64,000 nucleotides of DNA from Fodinicola acaciae (GCF_010993745.1 NZ_WOTN01000001.1:809235-873234), one strand, 5' to 3'; positions 37,244-44,120 are shown, counted from the stretch's first letter. Numbers and translations: made by a program. The notes: generated by a model from the letters alone, not told the origin.

Positions 37244-38446
37244 GTGGAAGAGGAACCGAGTCTCGACGGGTGGGCCGCGGAGGTCGCCGTCGTCGACGTC
37301 TACCGGCAGATCGGTGCCGTCCTGGGACGCAACGCGCGCTCGGTGATCACCGATCCGGTGATGTTCGACGTGGCGGAGACCCTGTTCGCGGCGTTCGCCG
37401 AGGCCGGCGAGCGCGGGCTCACGGTCGAGCAGATGCACGCGGCCTGCCGCCACCATCCGCGCGCGGTCGCCGAGGAGCGGGTACGCGTGTTGCGCGAGCT
37501 CAAGGCGATCCGGCCGGCCTTTGAGAAGCCGAACCCGCGCGAGTTCCAGGCGTCTTTCACCGCGTACGTGTCGCTGCTGTTCATCCAGCGGATGCTGCGC
37601 ACGGGTGGCCAGGCCGAGCTGCACCAGCTGCTCGCGATCGAGCGGATCAACCTGGAGTCGCGCGACGCGTCCGAGGACGACGCGCGCCGGGTGGCGGCGG
37701 AGATCACGCGCGCGTTCCGGCTGCTGGCCAACGAGCTTGTCGGTCTGGCGGTCGGCGGCACGATCGAGGCGCTGCGCGAGCGCGCGCCGCTGCTGTGGAG
37801 TGCCGACGAGCTGATCACGCGCGCCACCGGCGTACACGGGCAGATCCTGGAGCGGTGGCCGTCGCTGAGCCGCGCGTGCATGGAGCTGCGAGCCGGCGTC
37901 GACGCATACCGCGACGCGTCCCAGTCGGCGTCGGCGCGGCTGGCCGACGACGCCGGTGCGACGCGTGCGCTGGACCTGTTGCCGGTCGAGATGTGGAACT
38001 CGTACGCGCAACGAGCGACCGTCGGGCAGCTAGCCGAAGTGCTGTCGACACATGTCTTCGACGCGCCGGCGGCCTGGCAGGACGTGGTGGCGCTGGACGA
38101 GGCGCTGCAGAGCACCGCCAAGCCGATGCCGACGCGCATCCCGCCGCCGCGGCCGGCGCTGCCGGACCGGCAGGCCGGTGAGTCCGCGCCGCGCGTCGAC
38201 GCCGACCTGGAGCGGCTGCGTACGCTCGCCGAGGATTTGCTCCGCGGCCGCGAAGCCGTCAGCATTCCGGAGGTGCTGCGCGAGGTGGGGGACTGGTCGA
38301 CGGCTCGGCGGGTCTTCGCCGACCTGACCGCGGCCAGCAACAGCCCGGAGCTGGGCTATCGGATCGACTGGGAGGACACCGTGGAGGTCGGGGGGACGGC
38401 CGCTCACTACATGACCCGTGGCTGGTTTCGGCGAGCGGCCTCGTGA
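37244..38446 (+). CDS. SMC-operon protein 1: candidate kleisin (MukF/JetA-like size and layout)
   Basis: A 400-residue cytosolic protein, first of four overlapping genes ending in an SMC-like ATPase. Residues about 15-95 look like a winged helix (VMFDVAETLFAAFAEAGERG, HPRAVAEERVRVLRELKAI). Residues about 95-290 are almost all helical with charged heptad-like stretches. After a Pro-rich linker (PPPRPALPDRQ) comes a C-terminal segment of about 85 residues with another winged-helix-like pattern (DLLRGREAVSIPEVLREVGDW). Winged-helix/helical/winged-helix is the plan of MukF-type kleisins, hence the proposal; sequence identity to any named kleisin is not claimed. GTG start with a weak ribosome-binding site. 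The stop overlaps the next start (GTGA). Confidence 0.6.
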   Translation: MEEEPSLDGWAAEVAVVDVYRQIGAVLGRNARSVITDPVMFDVAETLFAAFAEAGERGLTVEQMHAACRHHPRAVAEERVRVLRELKAIRPAFEKPNPREFQASFTAYVSLLFIQRMLRTGGQAELHQLLAIERINLESRDASEDDARRVAAEITRAFRLLANELVGLAVGGTIEALRERAPLLWSADELITRATGVHGQILERWPSLSRACMELRAGVDAYRDASQSASARLADDAGATRALDLLPVEMWNSYAQRATVGQLAEVLSTHVFDAPAAWQDVVALDEALQSTAKPMPTRIPPPRPALPDRQAGESAPRVDADLERLRTLAEDLLRGREAVSIPEVLREVGDWSTARRVFADLTAASNSPELGYRIDWEDTVEVGGTAAHYMTRGWFRRAAS

Positions 38447-38958
38447 CCGAATCCGCTCTGTGGCTGGCGCGCGCTCGCGCGACCGGTCCACTGTTGGTCG
38501 ATCCGGAGGTGCCCACGCCGGACGGCATGCGGCGGCTGCCGGAGCCGGGGACCGAGCAGGCCTGGCTCGTGCCGGCGACGCCTGACGAGGTGACGCCGTC
38601 GGTGGTCACCGAGCTTGGCCTCGGCCTCATCGGCGTCGAGCAGCCAAACGAGACCAACCGCGTGCTGTTGTGCTGTCTTCGTTGCTGTTGGAGCGATGCG
38701 GACAAGCCATGGCCTGGCGTGGCGGCGTCGATGGACGACATCCTCGACGTGGCCGCGCAGCTGGCGCCCGGCCGGTCCGCCGAGTCCACCAGGATGCTGA
38801 CCGTCGGCGCGTTGCGCCGGCTCGCCACGCACCGCTGGATTTTGTTGGACGAAGCCAAAAGTGTCGTACGACTCGGCCCGGCGGTCGCGCTGTGGCCGGA
38901 CTCCGACCTCGGTACGCTGCGCGACCTGTGCCGGGACATGCCGGGGCCGCGCGAATGA
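38443..38958 (+). CDS. SMC-operon protein 2: small winged-helix-like (KITE-sized) protein
   Basis: A 171-residue protein with no signal peptide. The first 65 residues are a Pro-rich beta segment (LLVDPEVPTPDGMRRLPEPG). Residues about 95-160 contain helices and a wing-like strand pair (DDILDVAAQLAPGRSAESTR, LTVGALRRLATHRWILLDEA, VVRLGPAVALWP). There is a cysteine pair, CCLRCCW. The size and winged-helix character match MukE/ScpB/JetB-type KITE subunits, but the assignment rests mainly on gene order. The GTG start overlaps the stop of protein 1 and its stop overlaps protein 3 (ATGA). Confidence 0.55.
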   Translation: MTESALWLARARATGPLLVDPEVPTPDGMRRLPEPGTEQAWLVPATPDEVTPSVVTELGLGLIGVEQPNETNRVLLCCLRCCWSDADKPWPGVAASMDDILDVAAQLAPGRSAESTRMLTVGALRRLATHRWILLDEAKSVVRLGPAVALWPDSDLGTLRDLCRDMPGPRE

Positions 38959-39593
38959 CCGACTTCTACGCGCCGCTGCTGGACGCGCTGAGCGACCGCG
39001 AGCGGGACCAGGTGGTCGCGGCCTGGGCCGCGGTGGAATACAGCAGCGAGCCGGTGCAGGAGCTGCAGCTCGGCGCGCTGCGCGACGCGACGCTGCGGCA
39101 GCGGATCGAAGCTCTGCTGGCGAAATCCGGCCGTACGCTGGTCTCGGTCGGACCGGGTCTGTGGACCTCCGGCTATCGCGACGACATCGCCGAGCAGCTG
39201 GCCGAGCATGGCTGGGGGATCCTGCCGGAGCTCGACCGCGCGATCCTGACGCTCGTACTCGTCCATTCGGTGGCCATCCCGCGCTCGGAAGGCAAGCTGC
39301 CGCCTGGCACCTGGGTGTCGACTTTCCCCACGACGCCAACACATCTGCGGCGGATCTCGCAGCTGGCCGGCGGCCGGTCGATGACCGAGGCACTGGCGCG
39401 GCTGCGCGGCGCCGGCCTGATCCAGATGGTCCGCGGCGCCGACCCGACCACCGAAGGCGCGTCGTATCAGCCGGGGCCGCAGCTGCACCGGCTCACCCCG
39501 GCGGCCAGCCGCCGCCTGCAGGACCAGCTGATCCTCGCGGCCGGACCGGCGACCCCGCTGGCCGCCGCCATCCGTGCCCGCCGCGGGATATAG
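38955..39593 (+). CDS. SMC-operon protein 3: MukE/JetB-like winged-helix protein
   Basis: A 212-residue protein. Residues about 1-100 form one helical/wing unit (DRERDQVVAAWAAVEYSSEP, SGRTLVSVGPGLWTSGYRDD). Residues about 95-200 form a second: a helix pair (ELDRAILTLVLVHSVAIPR), a clear recognition-helix region (LRRISQLAGGRSMTEALARL), then strand and tail (AGLIQMVRGADPTTEGASYQ, GPQLHRLTP). Two tandem winged helices of this length are what MukE/MksE/JetB subunits look like. It is not obviously a copy of protein 2, so the complex may use two different KITE-type subunits. The ATG overlaps the previous stop. Confidence 0.6.
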   Translation: MTDFYAPLLDALSDRERDQVVAAWAAVEYSSEPVQELQLGALRDATLRQRIEALLAKSGRTLVSVGPGLWTSGYRDDIAEQLAEHGWGILPELDRAILTLVLVHSVAIPRSEGKLPPGTWVSTFPTTPTHLRRISQLAGGRSMTEALARLRGAGLIQMVRGADPTTEGASYQPGPQLHRLTPAASRRLQDQLILAAGPATPLAAAIRARRGI

Positions 39594-39605
39594 GAAGGAC
39601 CGACT

Positions 39606-42600
39606 TTGCCGGCACCAGTGGAAAACTACACCGACGACGTGGTCGGCAACCGGGTCCTGGTCGGCCTGCAGACCGTACACATCTCGCGGTTGTCCATGCA
39701 TCCGATCCCGATCAGCGCGGCCAGCCTGATCGCGGTCGCCGGCCAGGGACCGAAGGACTCCAACGGTGCCGGCAAATCCTCGCTGATCGGCTCGGCCAGC
39801 TTCATCCACGCCGACGACCAGTGGCGCTTCAACTCCGGCGCCACCTCGGCGCTGGACCTGCTGTTCACCGCCGAGGACGCCGGCCAGGAAGGCCGCTGGG
39901 CCGACGCCAAACACGGCTACATCATCGGAGTTTTCGCCGATCCACAAGCCGATACGCTGTCCGCACTGCAGGAATCCGCGCTGACGGTGTGGATCAGGAT
40001 CGACCGCGAGCACAGTCCGCACGTCGTCTTCCGGTGGACCGACGGCCTGCGGCTGCCGGTCGGCCGCAGCGAGGCCGACCGGGAGAAATCGGCCGACGAA
40101 ACCTGGGCCACGCTGGCAAAACGTGGCCGGCGGCGCAACGACCTGTCGGCCCGCGAGATGCCGCGTGTGCTGTTCGGCGATCACGTACGGTGTGTCTCTT
40201 TTCTTTCCACGTCCGTACGTGCAAGCGCCACCGCCAATCTTCTGGCGCAGCCGCTCAACGATCTGCCGGCACACCGAATTTTCTCCGCCATCGCCGCACT
40301 GACCGGCCTGGACCGAGAGATCGAGCAGGAGCGCGTCGGCCGCATTCGCGAGCACGAGGAGCGTCGCAAGGTCGCGCGCGCTGAGGAACTCCTTGCCGAG
40401 TGGGAAGAACACGCGCGTGCGATCGAGCGCAGCATCGACGACCGCGATGCCGCGCGTGCGTCCGTGCTGGAAGCCGAGCGGTCGTGGCGTTCGCGGGTCG
40501 CGGTCGCCGTCACCAAGGCGCATGACGACAAGCAGAGCCTCGACTTCGCGGTCGAGCGGCTGACCGACGAGATGACCGAGAAGAAGGAGAAGATCCGCGA
40601 GCTTTCCGCGCAGATCAACGAGGTCTCCAACGACGACGAGTTCCAGCAGAAGCAGCGCCTGGTCATGGAGACCCATCGCGGGCTGGCCGGCCGCGAGCGC
40701 TATCTGGAAGGCGAGCTGGCGCGGCGCGACGACCGTATCGAGCAGGACCAGAAAAAGGCCGACACGCTGCAGGAAGTCGCGCGTGACGCGGACGGCCGCG
40801 AGGAAAAGGCCGCGATGGCCGAGCTGGAGTCGGCCGTCGCCGCGCAGCAGGAGGCGGTCAAAGCCTGTGGTGTGGCGGAAAACCGGCTGGCGGCCGCCGG
40901 CGTACGGTTGACCTCGGCGGAGGCCGGTGAGGACCTGGCCCAGGAGGAGCTGTCGCTGCTCGCGGCGGCTGGCATCGAGGCGGTCGCGGTCGCCGACGCG
41001 GTGAGTGTTTCCGAGGAACAGCGGGCGAAATGGGAACCGATCCTCGCGCCATACCGGCAGGCAGTCGTGGTCGGTGCCGACGACGCGGAGGGCGCCGCTC
41101 GCGCGTTGAACGCGTTGCCGGGCTCGGTGATCGTGCCGGCGCACGCGGCCAAAGGCCGCAAACCCAAGGACCTGCCGGGAAACGCCGACTCGCGCTTCGA
41201 CATTTCCGGTTTCCTCGCTGCGCTGTCCGGGGCGTACGAGCTGGCCGGCGATCCGTCGCGGGTGATCGAAAGCTCCAGTGGCGCGGTGATCGTCGGCGGC
41301 TTCTCGGAGCCGACGACCGGCCGCGCGCAGCGGATCGCGCGTGCCGAGTTCGAGCTCGAAAACCAGCGCGATCTGTTGGTGGTGGCCGAAGAACGTAAGC
41401 GCGAGGCCGATGTCCTGGTACGCGACGCCGAGCGCCGGCTGACCGGCGCACGTGCCGCCGAGGAGGTCGCCGCGATCCGCGAGGCGATCGAGACCAACCG
41501 GCTGGAGCGCGAGAAGATCGCCGCCGAGCTGACCGAGGTGCAGACGCGGCTCGACGTGGCGGCACGCGAGCGCGACAAGATGGTCGGTGACGCGGCCACC
41601 CGCAACGGCATCATCGACAACCTGCTCAAGGAACGCGACCGGCTTTCCCAGGACGTCAGCAAGATGCAGGACCAGCGTACGGAGCTGGAGGCACAGCGCG
41701 GTGGTTCGGCACTGCCGGAGTTGCTGGCCGAGTGGGGGCACGGTCTCGACGAGGCGAAGGCGTACGTGCTGGGACTCGACGAGGCGCAGCAGTCCTGGAG
41801 CGAGAACGACTGGTGGCTGGAGGCCGACCGGCACATGTCCGCCGCCATCTCCAAATGCTTCCCCGACCGCGAATCCGACTCGGTGCCCAGCGAGCTGCGC
41901 AATCTTTTCCAGCAATATCACGGTCACGGCGCCGGTCGGGCCATGCAGGCTCGGCAGGCGTTTCCGGCGCTGCGCGCCGCGGTCGCCGGTTACCTGCGAC
42001 AGCAGGAAAGTTTCGACGGCCACCAGCGTACGCAGATCAGCGGCGAGCGCGCCGACCGGCACAAGGACCTAGCCGGTGCGCGGCTCGGTCACGAGCAGGC
42101 GAGCCAGGCGGCCGGCGCATACCGGTCGTCGCTGGCCGACGCGATCAAGAACCGGCTCAAGCTGGTGTCCGACGAGTTCGACCGGATCGACCGGAAATAC
42201 GGCGGATACGGCGCGTCGCTGCACTATCCGGTGCCGGAGGCGCCGGCCGATCCGACGCAGCCGTGGACCTGGGAAGTGACGCCGATGTGGCGCCGCGCCG
42301 AGGGAAAACGGCTGATCGCCTACAACCGGCGGGGCAACACCGCGCAGATGGACGAAAAAGCGGTGAAACTCGTGTGCGCGGCCGCGATGGCCGGCGCGCA
42401 GGACCGGCCGCTGACGCTGATTTTGGACGAGCTGGGCCGAAATCTCGGCAAGCAGCACCGGCGTGAGGCGGTCTCGCTGCTCGGCCAGATCGGCGCCGAC
42501 AGCGGCATCACGGTGATCGGCGCGCTGCAGGACGACATGGAACGCTATGCGATCGACGCCTGCGGCCAGTACATCAAGCTGCGGCGCAGCTCGGATTCCA

Positions 42601-42716
42601 TGCCGTACAACGAACAGCCGGTGATCATCGGTTACGAGCCGAGGGCCGCTCGAGTCGAGTTGCTGCGCGGCTGGCTGACCGGCAACGGCTACGTGGAAAC
42701 CGAGGAATCCGCATAG
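39606..42716 (+). CDS. SMC-operon protein 4: SMC/MukB/JetC-like ATPase
   Basis: A 1036-residue protein with SMC architecture. The Walker A loop is at about 50-59 (SNGAGKSS). Coiled coil 1 spans about 236-455, a globular hinge-like insert about 456-575 (EEQRAKWEPILAPYRQAVVV), and coiled coil 2 about 576-700. A further mixed segment precedes the C-terminal ATPase half, which has Walker B LILDELG (D941, E942) and VIGALQDDMERYA downstream. A canonical LSGGE signature is not visible; DEKAVKLVCAAAMAGAQ occupies that place. A TTG start at 39606 is chosen for the strong AGGAAGGA 6 nt before it. Probably the DNA-entrapping motor of a condensin-like or Wadjet-like complex with the three preceding proteins. 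Confidence 0.85.
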   Translation: MPAPVENYTDDVVGNRVLVGLQTVHISRLSMHPIPISAASLIAVAGQGPKDSNGAGKSSLIGSASFIHADDQWRFNSGATSALDLLFTAEDAGQEGRWADAKHGYIIGVFADPQADTLSALQESALTVWIRIDREHSPHVVFRWTDGLRLPVGRSEADREKSADETWATLAKRGRRRNDLSAREMPRVLFGDHVRCVSFLSTSVRASATANLLAQPLNDLPAHRIFSAIAALTGLDREIEQERVGRIREHEERRKVARAEELLAEWEEHARAIERSIDDRDAARASVLEAERSWRSRVAVAVTKAHDDKQSLDFAVERLTDEMTEKKEKIRELSAQINEVSNDDEFQQKQRLVMETHRGLAGRERYLEGELARRDDRIEQDQKKADTLQEVARDADGREEKAAMAELESAVAAQQEAVKACGVAENRLAAAGVRLTSAEAGEDLAQEELSLLAAAGIEAVAVADAVSVSEEQRAKWEPILAPYRQAVVVGADDAEGAARALNALPGSVIVPAHAAKGRKPKDLPGNADSRFDISGFLAALSGAYELAGDPSRVIESSSGAVIVGGFSEPTTGRAQRIARAEFELENQRDLLVVAEERKREADVLVRDAERRLTGARAAEEVAAIREAIETNRLEREKIAAELTEVQTRLDVAARERDKMVGDAATRNGIIDNLLKERDRLSQDVSKMQDQRTELEAQRGGSALPELLAEWGHGLDEAKAYVLGLDEAQQSWSENDWWLEADRHMSAAISKCFPDRESDSVPSELRNLFQQYHGHGAGRAMQARQAFPALRAAVAGYLRQQESFDGHQRTQISGERADRHKDLAGARLGHEQASQAAGAYRSSLADAIKNRLKLVSDEFDRIDRKYGGYGASLHYPVPEAPADPTQPWTWEVTPMWRRAEGKRLIAYNRRGNTAQMDEKAVKLVCAAAMAGAQDRPLTLILDELGRNLGKQHRREAVSLLGQIGADSGITVIGALQDDMERYAIDACGQYIKLRRSSDSMPYNEQPVIIGYEPRAARVELLRGWLTGNGYVETEESA

Positions 42717-42752
42717 CCAGCGGCACGGCGGTTGCCATGCCGCTGGCTTTTG
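42715..42752 (+). terminator. rho-independent terminator of the SMC-type operon
   Basis: Perfect 11-bp arms AGCCAGCGGCA (42715-42725) and TGCCGCTGGCT (42738-42748) enclose a 12-nt loop and are followed by TTT. The left arm begins inside the TAG stop of the SMC-like gene, so the operon ends exactly here; it may also serve the convergent CHAP gene ending at 42756. Confidence 0.8.
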
Positions 42753-42755
42753 CGA

Positions 42756-43271
42756 TCAGTGAGACGGAACGGCGGCCGGCGTCCAGCCGCGGTAGGTCGC
42801 GTTCCAGCCGGCGACATTGCGGTAGTAGTCGTATCCGCCGCCGGCCTTGGTGACATGGCCGATCGCACCGTTCACGCTGCTGGCGTAAAAGCCGCCGGCT
42901 CCATCGGAAATGCCGACGTGGCCGTACGCGCCGACATCCCAGTAGACGAAAGCGCCGAGCGGCGGGCTGTAGTTGCCGGGGTGCTGCGGAGCGCCGTTCC
43001 AGTGTGCGTTGGCCGAGGCCCACACGCCGGTCGTGCCGTACGCGTTTTCGACCGCTTTCTCGCAATAACCCTGCCAACCGGTGGAACCGTTGTGCGCCTG
43101 GAACCACTGGACGGCTCCCGACGGGGTGCCGTCGCCAGCGGCGTCAGGAGCGGCGACAACGGCCGCGATCGAGGTGTGTGCATCGGCCGCGACTGGCGCG
43201 GTCGTGACGGCCGCGGCGGTCAATGCGAGGATCGCGGCGACTTTGACGAGTCTCTCGGTGAGAGCGGACAT
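42756..43271 (-). CDS. secreted CHAP-type peptidoglycan hydrolase
   Basis: A 171-residue exported protein. The signal peptide spans about 1-31 (VKVAAILALTAAAVTTAPVAADA). The mature part is a single small papain-like domain with the probable catalytic Cys70 in GWQGYCEKAVENAYG and His118 in GAYGHVGIS, preceded by LGAFVYWD, the pattern of CHAP amidases/endopeptidases. It would cut peptidoglycan stem peptides outside the membrane. It diverges from a second CHAP gene across 285 bp. No cell-wall-binding domain is attached. Confidence 0.85.
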   Translation of the reverse strand: MSALTERLVKVAAILALTAAAVTTAPVAADAHTSIAAVVAAPDAAGDGTPSGAVQWFQAHNGSTGWQGYCEKAVENAYGTTGVWASANAHWNGAPQHPGNYSPPLGAFVYWDVGAYGHVGISDGAGGFYASSVNGAIGHVTKAGGGYDYYRNVAGWNATYRGWTPAAVPSH

Positions 43272-43556
43272 GGCGCGACACCTTCCGGTCGGCGGGGATG
43301 ACCGTCATCACGGTCGGGGAGCAAAGTTACCCATCGCCGATAAAGCCGGCAAGATCTCTTCATCCGACAAAAGCTGATATTTCGAGCCATGAAGTAATTG
43401 TCATACGATGTAAAGCGTGAAAATGTAGCCGGCGTGTACTTCTCGTCGCCGGCAAGCTTGGTCATCTGCGCGAACGTAGTTCCGTAACTGTGCATCTCGG
43501 CTGATGGCGACCGTGGATGTATGTCCGTTGTATGTCCTGATCCGATACTTCGCCTC
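43272..43556. other. 285-bp divergent intergenic region between two CHAP genes
   Basis: No gene. It holds the leaders and promoters of both secreted hydrolases. The only clear symmetry is GACCGT-CATC-ACGGTC (43300-43315), close to the minus-strand start. The middle (about 43340-43430) is AT-rich. I looked for a ydaO-type c-di-AMP riboswitch, frequent before actinobacterial wall hydrolases, and did not find its core motifs. Confidence 0.5.
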
Positions 43557-44120
43557 ATGAGTACTGATTCAAGGCTCCGCGATCGTCGTCGACTGGTCGG
43601 TGGCATCGCCGCTTTCCTGGTGATGGTGGGACTCCTGGCGATGGCTGCCAGCCCGTCCGCTGCCGCGGTCCAATCCGCAACCGTCCGCGCGGACATCGTC
43701 AACATCGCCAGCGGCGAGCTCGGCGTCGGTGAGAACCCGCCAGGCAGCAACTGCACCAAATACGGCCCGTGCGAGGCCTGGTGCGCGCTCTTCGCGACCT
43801 GGGTGTGGCAACATGCCGGCATCGGCATTCCGACGTACGCCTTCACCGGCGACATTTACACCTGGGGACAACGAAAAGGCCGCGCGCACTCGACCGACAC
43901 CGGGATGCAGCCGGGTGACATCGTGCTCTATGGCACCGGCCCACAGAACACGGACACCAGCCTGCACACCGGCATCGTGGTGGCGGTCGGGACCGGCACG
44001 ATCACGACGGTCGAAGGAAACTCCGACAACCAGGTCGAAAAGCACGGCCCGTTCGACCCGACCCACGCCAGGGACGCCGGCCGGCCCGGCAACATCTACG
44101 GCTGGGTCTCCGCCACCTGA
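43557..44120 (+). CDS. secreted CHAP-domain hydrolase
   Basis: A 187-residue protein. The start at 43557 gives an N-terminal signal/anchor (RRLVGGIAAFLVMVGLLAMA, cleavage near ASPSAAA). The CHAP domain carries Cys76 in CEAWCALFATWVW and His137 in SLHTGIVVAV, with TTVEGNSDNQVEKHG supplying the third polar residue. GMQPGDIVLYG is the usual strand before the active-site His. It probably cleaves peptidoglycan peptide cross-links extracellularly. Its last 25 bp overlap the convergent MFS gene. Confidence 0.87.
   Translation: MSTDSRLRDRRRLVGGIAAFLVMVGLLAMAASPSAAAVQSATVRADIVNIASGELGVGENPPGSNCTKYGPCEAWCALFATWVWQHAGIGIPTYAFTGDIYTWGQRKGRAHSTDTGMQPGDIVLYGTGPQNTDTSLHTGIVVAVGTGTITTVEGNSDNQVEKHGPFDPTHARDAGRPGNIYGWVSAT

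Follow-up and report, generated by a model that had tools for sequence, protein, structure and literature searches.

An SMC operon without a recognizable effector in Fodinicola acaciae belongs to an unclassified actinomycete family related to Wadjet

A 64,000-nucleotide stretch of the Fodinicola acaciae genome (GCF_010993745.1, NZ_WOTN01000001.1:809235-873234; hereafter the window) contains an operon whose products resemble the parts of a structural maintenance of chromosomes (SMC) machine: a kleisin-like protein (P1), two proteins resembling kleisin-interacting tandem winged-helix elements (KITE; P2 and P3) and an SMC-type ATPase (P4). The nuclease that defines Wadjet systems, JetD, is missing from this operon, which raises the question of what kind of SMC machine it encodes and what that machine might do without a nuclease. 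We found that the operon falls in an unclassified branch that is related to Wadjet and has so far been seen only in actinomycetes; its relatives there carry a nuclease, a kinase or no recognizable effector. Four open reading frames (ORFs) on the + strand at positions 37244-42716 and a strong terminator closing the unit confirmed the four-gene operon described in a first-pass annotation of the sequence, P1 and P2 overlapping by GTGA, P2 and P3 by ATGA, and 12 bp separating P3 from P4. The folding energy of a 51-nucleotide stretch at the terminator is -35 kcal/mol (z -6.1), a value that none of 200 shuffles matched. The four-gene set is far beyond chance: 19 loci from other genomes carry these genes in this order, and nearly all of 80 named loci have the set.

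By profile comparison P4 is an SMC-type ATPase homologous to JetC, in agreement with the SMC ATPase of the first-pass annotation. In particular, hhalign aligned P4 with 30 type-I JetC proteins at 97.3% (E 2.6e-11) over 936 columns, that is, over the whole length of the protein, and with SbcC at 9.8%. The core residues of the Walker A motif, GPKDSNGAGKSS, and of Walker B show no variation across 17 homologues. Where alignment puts the ATP-binding cassette (ABC) signature, all 16 family members compared, outgroups among them, have a conserved N[TS]A[QE] ahead of Walker B; the form in Streptosporangiales is NTAL. SMC family models match P4 weakly and mostly in the coiled coil.

The AlphaFold2 model of P1 (predicted local distance difference test (pLDDT) 73.5) has an N-terminal winged helix, a helical middle and a C-terminal winged helix, and P1 models as a MukF/JetA-type kleisin. 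MukF was the first Foldseek match over nearly the whole length (E 4.8e-5, prob 1.00), as expected from the kleisin-like protein annotated at this position, and Escherichia coli JetA ranked fourth; VIA-align superimposed P1 and MukF with Z 9.7 over 196 residues at a root-mean-square deviation of 7.2. The P1 profile matches the JetA profile weakly, and a Pfam match to PRR22 was rejected as below the cut-off. For P2 and P3 we modeled a fusion (pLDDT 87, predicted template modeling score 0.81), whose best fold match, over the whole length, was 9qe0_D, a chain of one or another subunit in a Wadjet-II JetABC structure (E 4.7e-3). Further matches were ScpB structures and the MAGE-G1/NSE1 complex (prob 0.93), which like the JetABC structure contain KITE proteins, as well as MukE. 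On these models P2 and P3 look like the pair of KITE-type proteins that had been annotated. Their profiles match that of JetB weakly, and a Pfam search for MksE (PF21980) matched neither.

The description of the system as unclassified fits the results of our family searches, in which no Pfam, NCBIfam or PADLOC model named any of P1-P4 at its threshold. The PADLOC models for Wadjet types I-III gave only JetC3 at E 0.32 for P4 and nothing for P1-P3, and none of the MukBEF and MksB/E/F families of Pfam and NCBIfam matched P1-P4 above threshold. Searching single type-I Jet sequences with our family profiles returned nothing, profile-profile comparison being informative for JetC and JetD. Profile searches of Protein Data Bank sequences with P1-P5 (P5 is described below) yielded no relatives, only noise that was mostly coiled coil.

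Searching genomes and the GTDB contig collection (~85,000 species) with P4 identified 195 encoding stretches, of which the best 80 were named and kept; all of these best 80 are from actinomycetes. The order P1-P2-P3-P4 is the same in all complete loci, and the exceptions to the full gene set are loci cut by contig ends and an Antribacter locus (L088) in which P4 alone was detected by tblastn. P2 and P3 form a single ORF of ~400 aa in Streptosporangiaceae and in a divergent locus (L162), suggesting that the two proteins act next to each other. The closest genome, that of F. feengrottensis, carries the same locus with a P4 that is 83% identical. Second, more divergent copies of P4 occur in genomes that also have a typical copy (G610:C1:2889079-2892135, G663:C12:307334-310366 and G478:C20:59968-63090, the last being L167). 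A mobile-element origin of the core was considered and rejected: phage and viral collections contained no match, and the single match in the plasmid collection was an 11.85-Mb Nonomuraea record, a mislabelled chromosome.

The family as a whole is not nuclease-free. A fifth gene (P5) is found in Micromonospora, Actinoplanes, Saccharothrix, Amycolatopsis and Antribacter; its start coincides with the P4 stop or is close to it, and the two genes often overlap. P5 is JetD-like (PADLOC JetD1, E 5.9e-11; Pfam DUF2399, 27.4 bits, and JetD_C, 23.0 bits, both over the cut-off), and its motifs ENRQAAE and DADLGG are invariant in eight sequences. In the divergent relatives L165-L167 a JetD gene is located before P1 (PF09983, 62 bits in L165). 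The P5 profile links to the JetD proteins of these relatives at 96.8%, and they in turn link to type-I JetD at 96.7%; the direct link from P5 to type-I JetD is weak. In five further loci a Ser/Thr kinase gene and a partner gene stand beside the SMC core in place of the Toprim nuclease gene. In L098, from Saccharothrix, and in L169 the N-terminal 146-154 residues of P5 persist, with 66-78% identity to Amycolatopsis P5, but a protein kinase takes the place of the Toprim half, and a gene for a partner of ~340 aa follows; L170 has the same design, and L161 and L163 carry the same kinase and partner pair next to two very divergent cores. Because the P4 proteins of L063, which has the Toprim version, and of L098 and L169 are close neighbors in both of our trees, the swap between nuclease and kinase there is recent. 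The kinase resembles those of the known defense systems PD-T4-6 and MAD6, and the kinase-bearing loci are a candidate SMC defense system with a kinase effector. Given relatives with a JetD-like gene on one side or the other of the core, or with a kinase instead, we regard the system as Wadjet-related with a variable effector.

Loci with an effector, which we call armed, occur sporadically and at varying locations, and some of them are broken. Cores occur in 12 of 81 Micromonospora genomes, most of them armed, and the flanks there are unshared except for P5 in nearly all pairs: in M. chalcea and M. inaquosa (L080 and L086), whose P4 proteins are 92% identical, the one common flank gene is P5. 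One armed locus adjoins the defense candidate PDC-S68. Among individual loci, P4 of L169 (Micromonospora) is split at the Walker B region by an insertion sequence that carries a transposase gene (L169:10234-11148), in L164:8424-10076 the N-terminus of JetD has become joined to the C-terminus of P4 through a deletion, and an integrase-type transposase gene lies where P1 would be expected in L162:13905-14768.

The window operon belongs to the unarmed form. As annotated, there is no nuclease near it, and searches of the window genome, whose positive controls worked, found neither P5 nor any gene resembling that of the kinase partner. The only JetD of this genome, as searched with PF09983, is part of a complete type-I Wadjet on contig C2. 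The first-pass annotation had held that a JetD partner elsewhere in the genome, with the ATPase nested in a known clade, would speak against a nuclease-free system; a JetD is indeed present, but it sits in a JetABCD operon of its own on another contig, of which P4 is not part. Likewise, P5 was not found in 16 genomes lacking one beside P4, whereas that search did detect it in four positive controls. Among the 80 named loci, 65 have no effector within at least 1.5 kb of downstream sequence (56 of them also have at least 1.5 kb of upstream sequence), 10 have an effector and 5 were not classed; profile searches detected no effector remnants in the named loci. The core is present in 38/38 Kribbella, 12/12 Jiangella, 2/2 Haloactinopolyspora and 43/60 Actinomadura genomes, and the subset of these inspected for effectors was unarmed throughout. 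In unarmed genera a mean of 32-60% of flank genes are shared, and ratios of nonsynonymous to synonymous substitution rates of 0.02-0.39 indicate purifying selection in all genera tested. In Actinomadura, Thermomonospora and a relative (L069, L073, L101, L109, L117, L048 and L120) a repeat-like (HEAT-like) gene of ~1100 aa and/or a Ser/Thr kinase gene lies downstream of P4 on the same strand.

On the trees, 4 to 6 changes account for the unarmed label, and the outgroups are mostly armed. A root with JetD followed by losses only would cost ~9 changes by our own count, and repeated gains of effectors may therefore have occurred. Paractinoplanes, nested in an armed clade, is by its tree position the sole clear effector loss. 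A placement of the window operon as sister to the kinase-bearing L170 joins two long branches and was not relied on.

The coordinates of the features are collected in Table 1. Upstream of the operon lies a gene for a GFO/IDH/MocA oxidoreductase, an ordinary gene unrelated to the SMC core, and the downstream flank likewise consists of ordinary genes: the span 42756-44120, between the operon and a major facilitator superfamily (MFS) transporter gene, encodes a pair of small proteins that look secreted, of which the second has a CHAP domain.

Table 1 Features of the operon in the window and of the Wadjet and kinase-bearing loci used for comparison
Feature	Coordinates	Strand	Basis
P1, kleisin-like subunit, 400 aa	37244..38446	+	ORF, GTG start; structure model and fold match
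P2, KITE-like winged-helix subunit, 171 aa	38443..38958	+	ORF; P1/P2 overlap GTGA; fold of P2-P3 fusion
P3, second KITE-like winged-helix subunit, 212 aa	38955..39593	+	ORF; P2/P3 overlap ATGA; fold of P2-P3 fusion
P4, SMC-type ATPase, 1036 aa	39606..42716	+	ORF, TTG start; 12-bp gap after P3
Walker A region of P4 (DSNGAGKSS and neighbors)	39759..39782	+	Read from sequence; invariant in homologues
Walker B of P4 (LILDELG)	42417..42437	+	Read from sequence; core invariant in homologues
Intrinsic terminator hairpin, then T-run	42714..42752	+	Folding energy
Complete type-I Wadjet (JetA, JetB, JetC, JetD), separate from the window operon	L002:3649-10872, contig C2		
Kinase and partner loci	L170:5505-7941; L098:7778-10276; L169:11480-13931; L163:11598-13985; L161:3151-5195		

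What, then, might the unarmed machine do? We favor, with moderate confidence, the reading that the window operon is an accessory condensin, that is, a Wadjet-type SMC motor kept for chromosome work without its nuclease, much as in MksBEF, a function that we infer. Two P4 ATPases would form the arms of a ring, P1 would bridge the P4 heads as the kleisin and the P2-P3 pair would bind P1. In armed relatives the motor would sense DNA and the attached effector would act, attachment presumably being through the N-terminal domain common to the Toprim and kinase versions; in the lineage of the window, in Kribbella, in Jiangella and in Streptosporangiaceae the effector gene would not have been kept. 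The target of the motor would then most likely be the cell's own chromosome, on which it would use ATP to entrap DNA or extrude loops. Assembly of P1-P4 into one complex, loop extrusion and a chromosomal target are what we infer. The contrast between armed and unarmed forms in flanks and retention is what would be expected if the armed forms were defense genes and the unarmed forms housekeeping genes, so that, of the two roles that had been suggested for the operon, chromosome organization appears the better and plasmid or phage restriction is unlikely for the unarmed form.

Several points weigh against an accessory condensin. No family model names any of the four proteins, and the KITE assignment depends on fold matches none of which passes E 0.001. 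ATP-driven head engagement is an assumption, because family-wide N[TS]A[QE] stands where alignment would put the canonical SGG signature. The label 'unarmed' is less certain in Actinomadura and Thermomonospora, because a kinase or HEAT-like gene immediately follows the core, and an effector of an unrecognized type may act in trans. Finally, the draft copy of the operon in F. feengrottensis (L041/L061:5902-11441) has frameshifts in P1 and P4, for which sequencing error is the likely source, because the assembly is 74% complete.

Among the alternatives, the unarmed core might still restrict foreign circular DNA by silencing or compacting it without cutting. The core is the same as in armed relatives that resemble defense systems, and there is a precedent in Smc5/6, which restrains viral episomes without cutting them (PMC10586767). 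We consider this unlikely, since fixation throughout Kribbella, Jiangella and other genera, partly stable neighborhoods and the ordinary flanks of the window operon are atypical of defense genes. A Wadjet-like defense system served in trans, by an unrecognized nuclease or kinase encoded elsewhere or by the JetD of the type-I Wadjet, seems to us a little more doubtful still: the genome does contain a JetD, effectors of the P1-P4 family are exchangeable and a kinase or HEAT-like gene adjoins the core in Actinomadura, but that JetD belongs to its own complete operon, P5 and type-I JetD are far apart in sequence, and P5 occurs only where it is encoded beside P4 and in none of the 16 unarmed genomes or the window genome. 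That the operon is a decaying remnant of a defense island, drifting after loss of its effector, is highly improbable despite the broken armed copies in other genomes and the frameshifts in the F. feengrottensis draft, given four intact ORFs, invariant ATPase motifs, purifying selection in all unarmed genera tested and retention in every Kribbella genome.

The accessory condensin reading can be set within a wider proposal, which we judge evenly balanced: a single actinomycete SMC core with a plug-in effector slot that holds a JetD-type Toprim nuclease, a Ser/Thr kinase with its partner (SMC-triggered signaling defense) or nothing (a genus-wide core condensin, as in the window). If this is so, defense and chromosome organization interconvert on one chassis, and the family suggests that a defense machine and a chromosome-organizing machine share one engine. 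Two predictions follow: an unstudied nuclease-free SMC machine in all sampled species of Kribbella and Jiangella, and an SMC system in which a kinase replaces the nuclease. In the literature that we searched, neither was found described.

How the window operon compares with known systems bears on its place among them. Like Wadjet (JetABCD, MksBEFG or EptABCD), it has an apparent kleisin-KITE-SMC core in one operon and an ATPase that aligns with JetC along its whole length, and some of its relatives have a JetD-like Toprim protein. Unlike Wadjet, it has no JetD of its own in the genome, has two separate KITE-like genes and escapes recognition by the PADLOC type I-III models, its family has N[TS]A[QE] at the aligned place of SGGE, and some of its relatives have a kinase instead of the nuclease. 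We have not filed it as Wadjet, because the defining nuclease was tested for and is absent and no type model recognizes it. Smc-ScpAB resembles it in that the P2-P3 model matches ScpB, but P4 matches SMC models weakly, the head motifs diverge and there are two KITE-like genes. MukBEF appears to share the SMC-kleisin-KITE plan, with MukF as the best fold match of P1, but there is no detectable sequence similarity or MukBEF family match, and two KITE-like genes stand against the single MukE; MukB is also longer than P4. With Smc5/6 (Nse1/Nse3) the operon would have in common two different KITE proteins, the MAGE-G1/NSE1 complex being among the P2-P3 fold matches; the special link to Smc5/6 proposed in the first-pass annotation found no support beyond this common fold, membership was dropped for that reason, and the KITE heterodimer is probably a convergent use. 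Closest in plan to our reading is MksBEF of Pseudomonas aeruginosa, likewise a nuclease-free SMC-kleisin-KITE operon (the KITE part by fold only). The family of the window differs from it in being unmatched by MksB/E/F-type models, in having two KITE-like genes, in occurring in actinomycetes and in combining armed and unarmed forms. MksBEF, and perhaps MukBEF, has been proposed in a review to have arisen from Wadjet, MksBEF through loss of the nuclease (PMC10586767). The comparisons behind that proposal are deep and blurred; in the family described here such a change of function is directly testable, because related genera contain armed and unarmed versions, Paractinoplanes offers a clear loss, and the swap of nuclease for kinase between close cores is recent.

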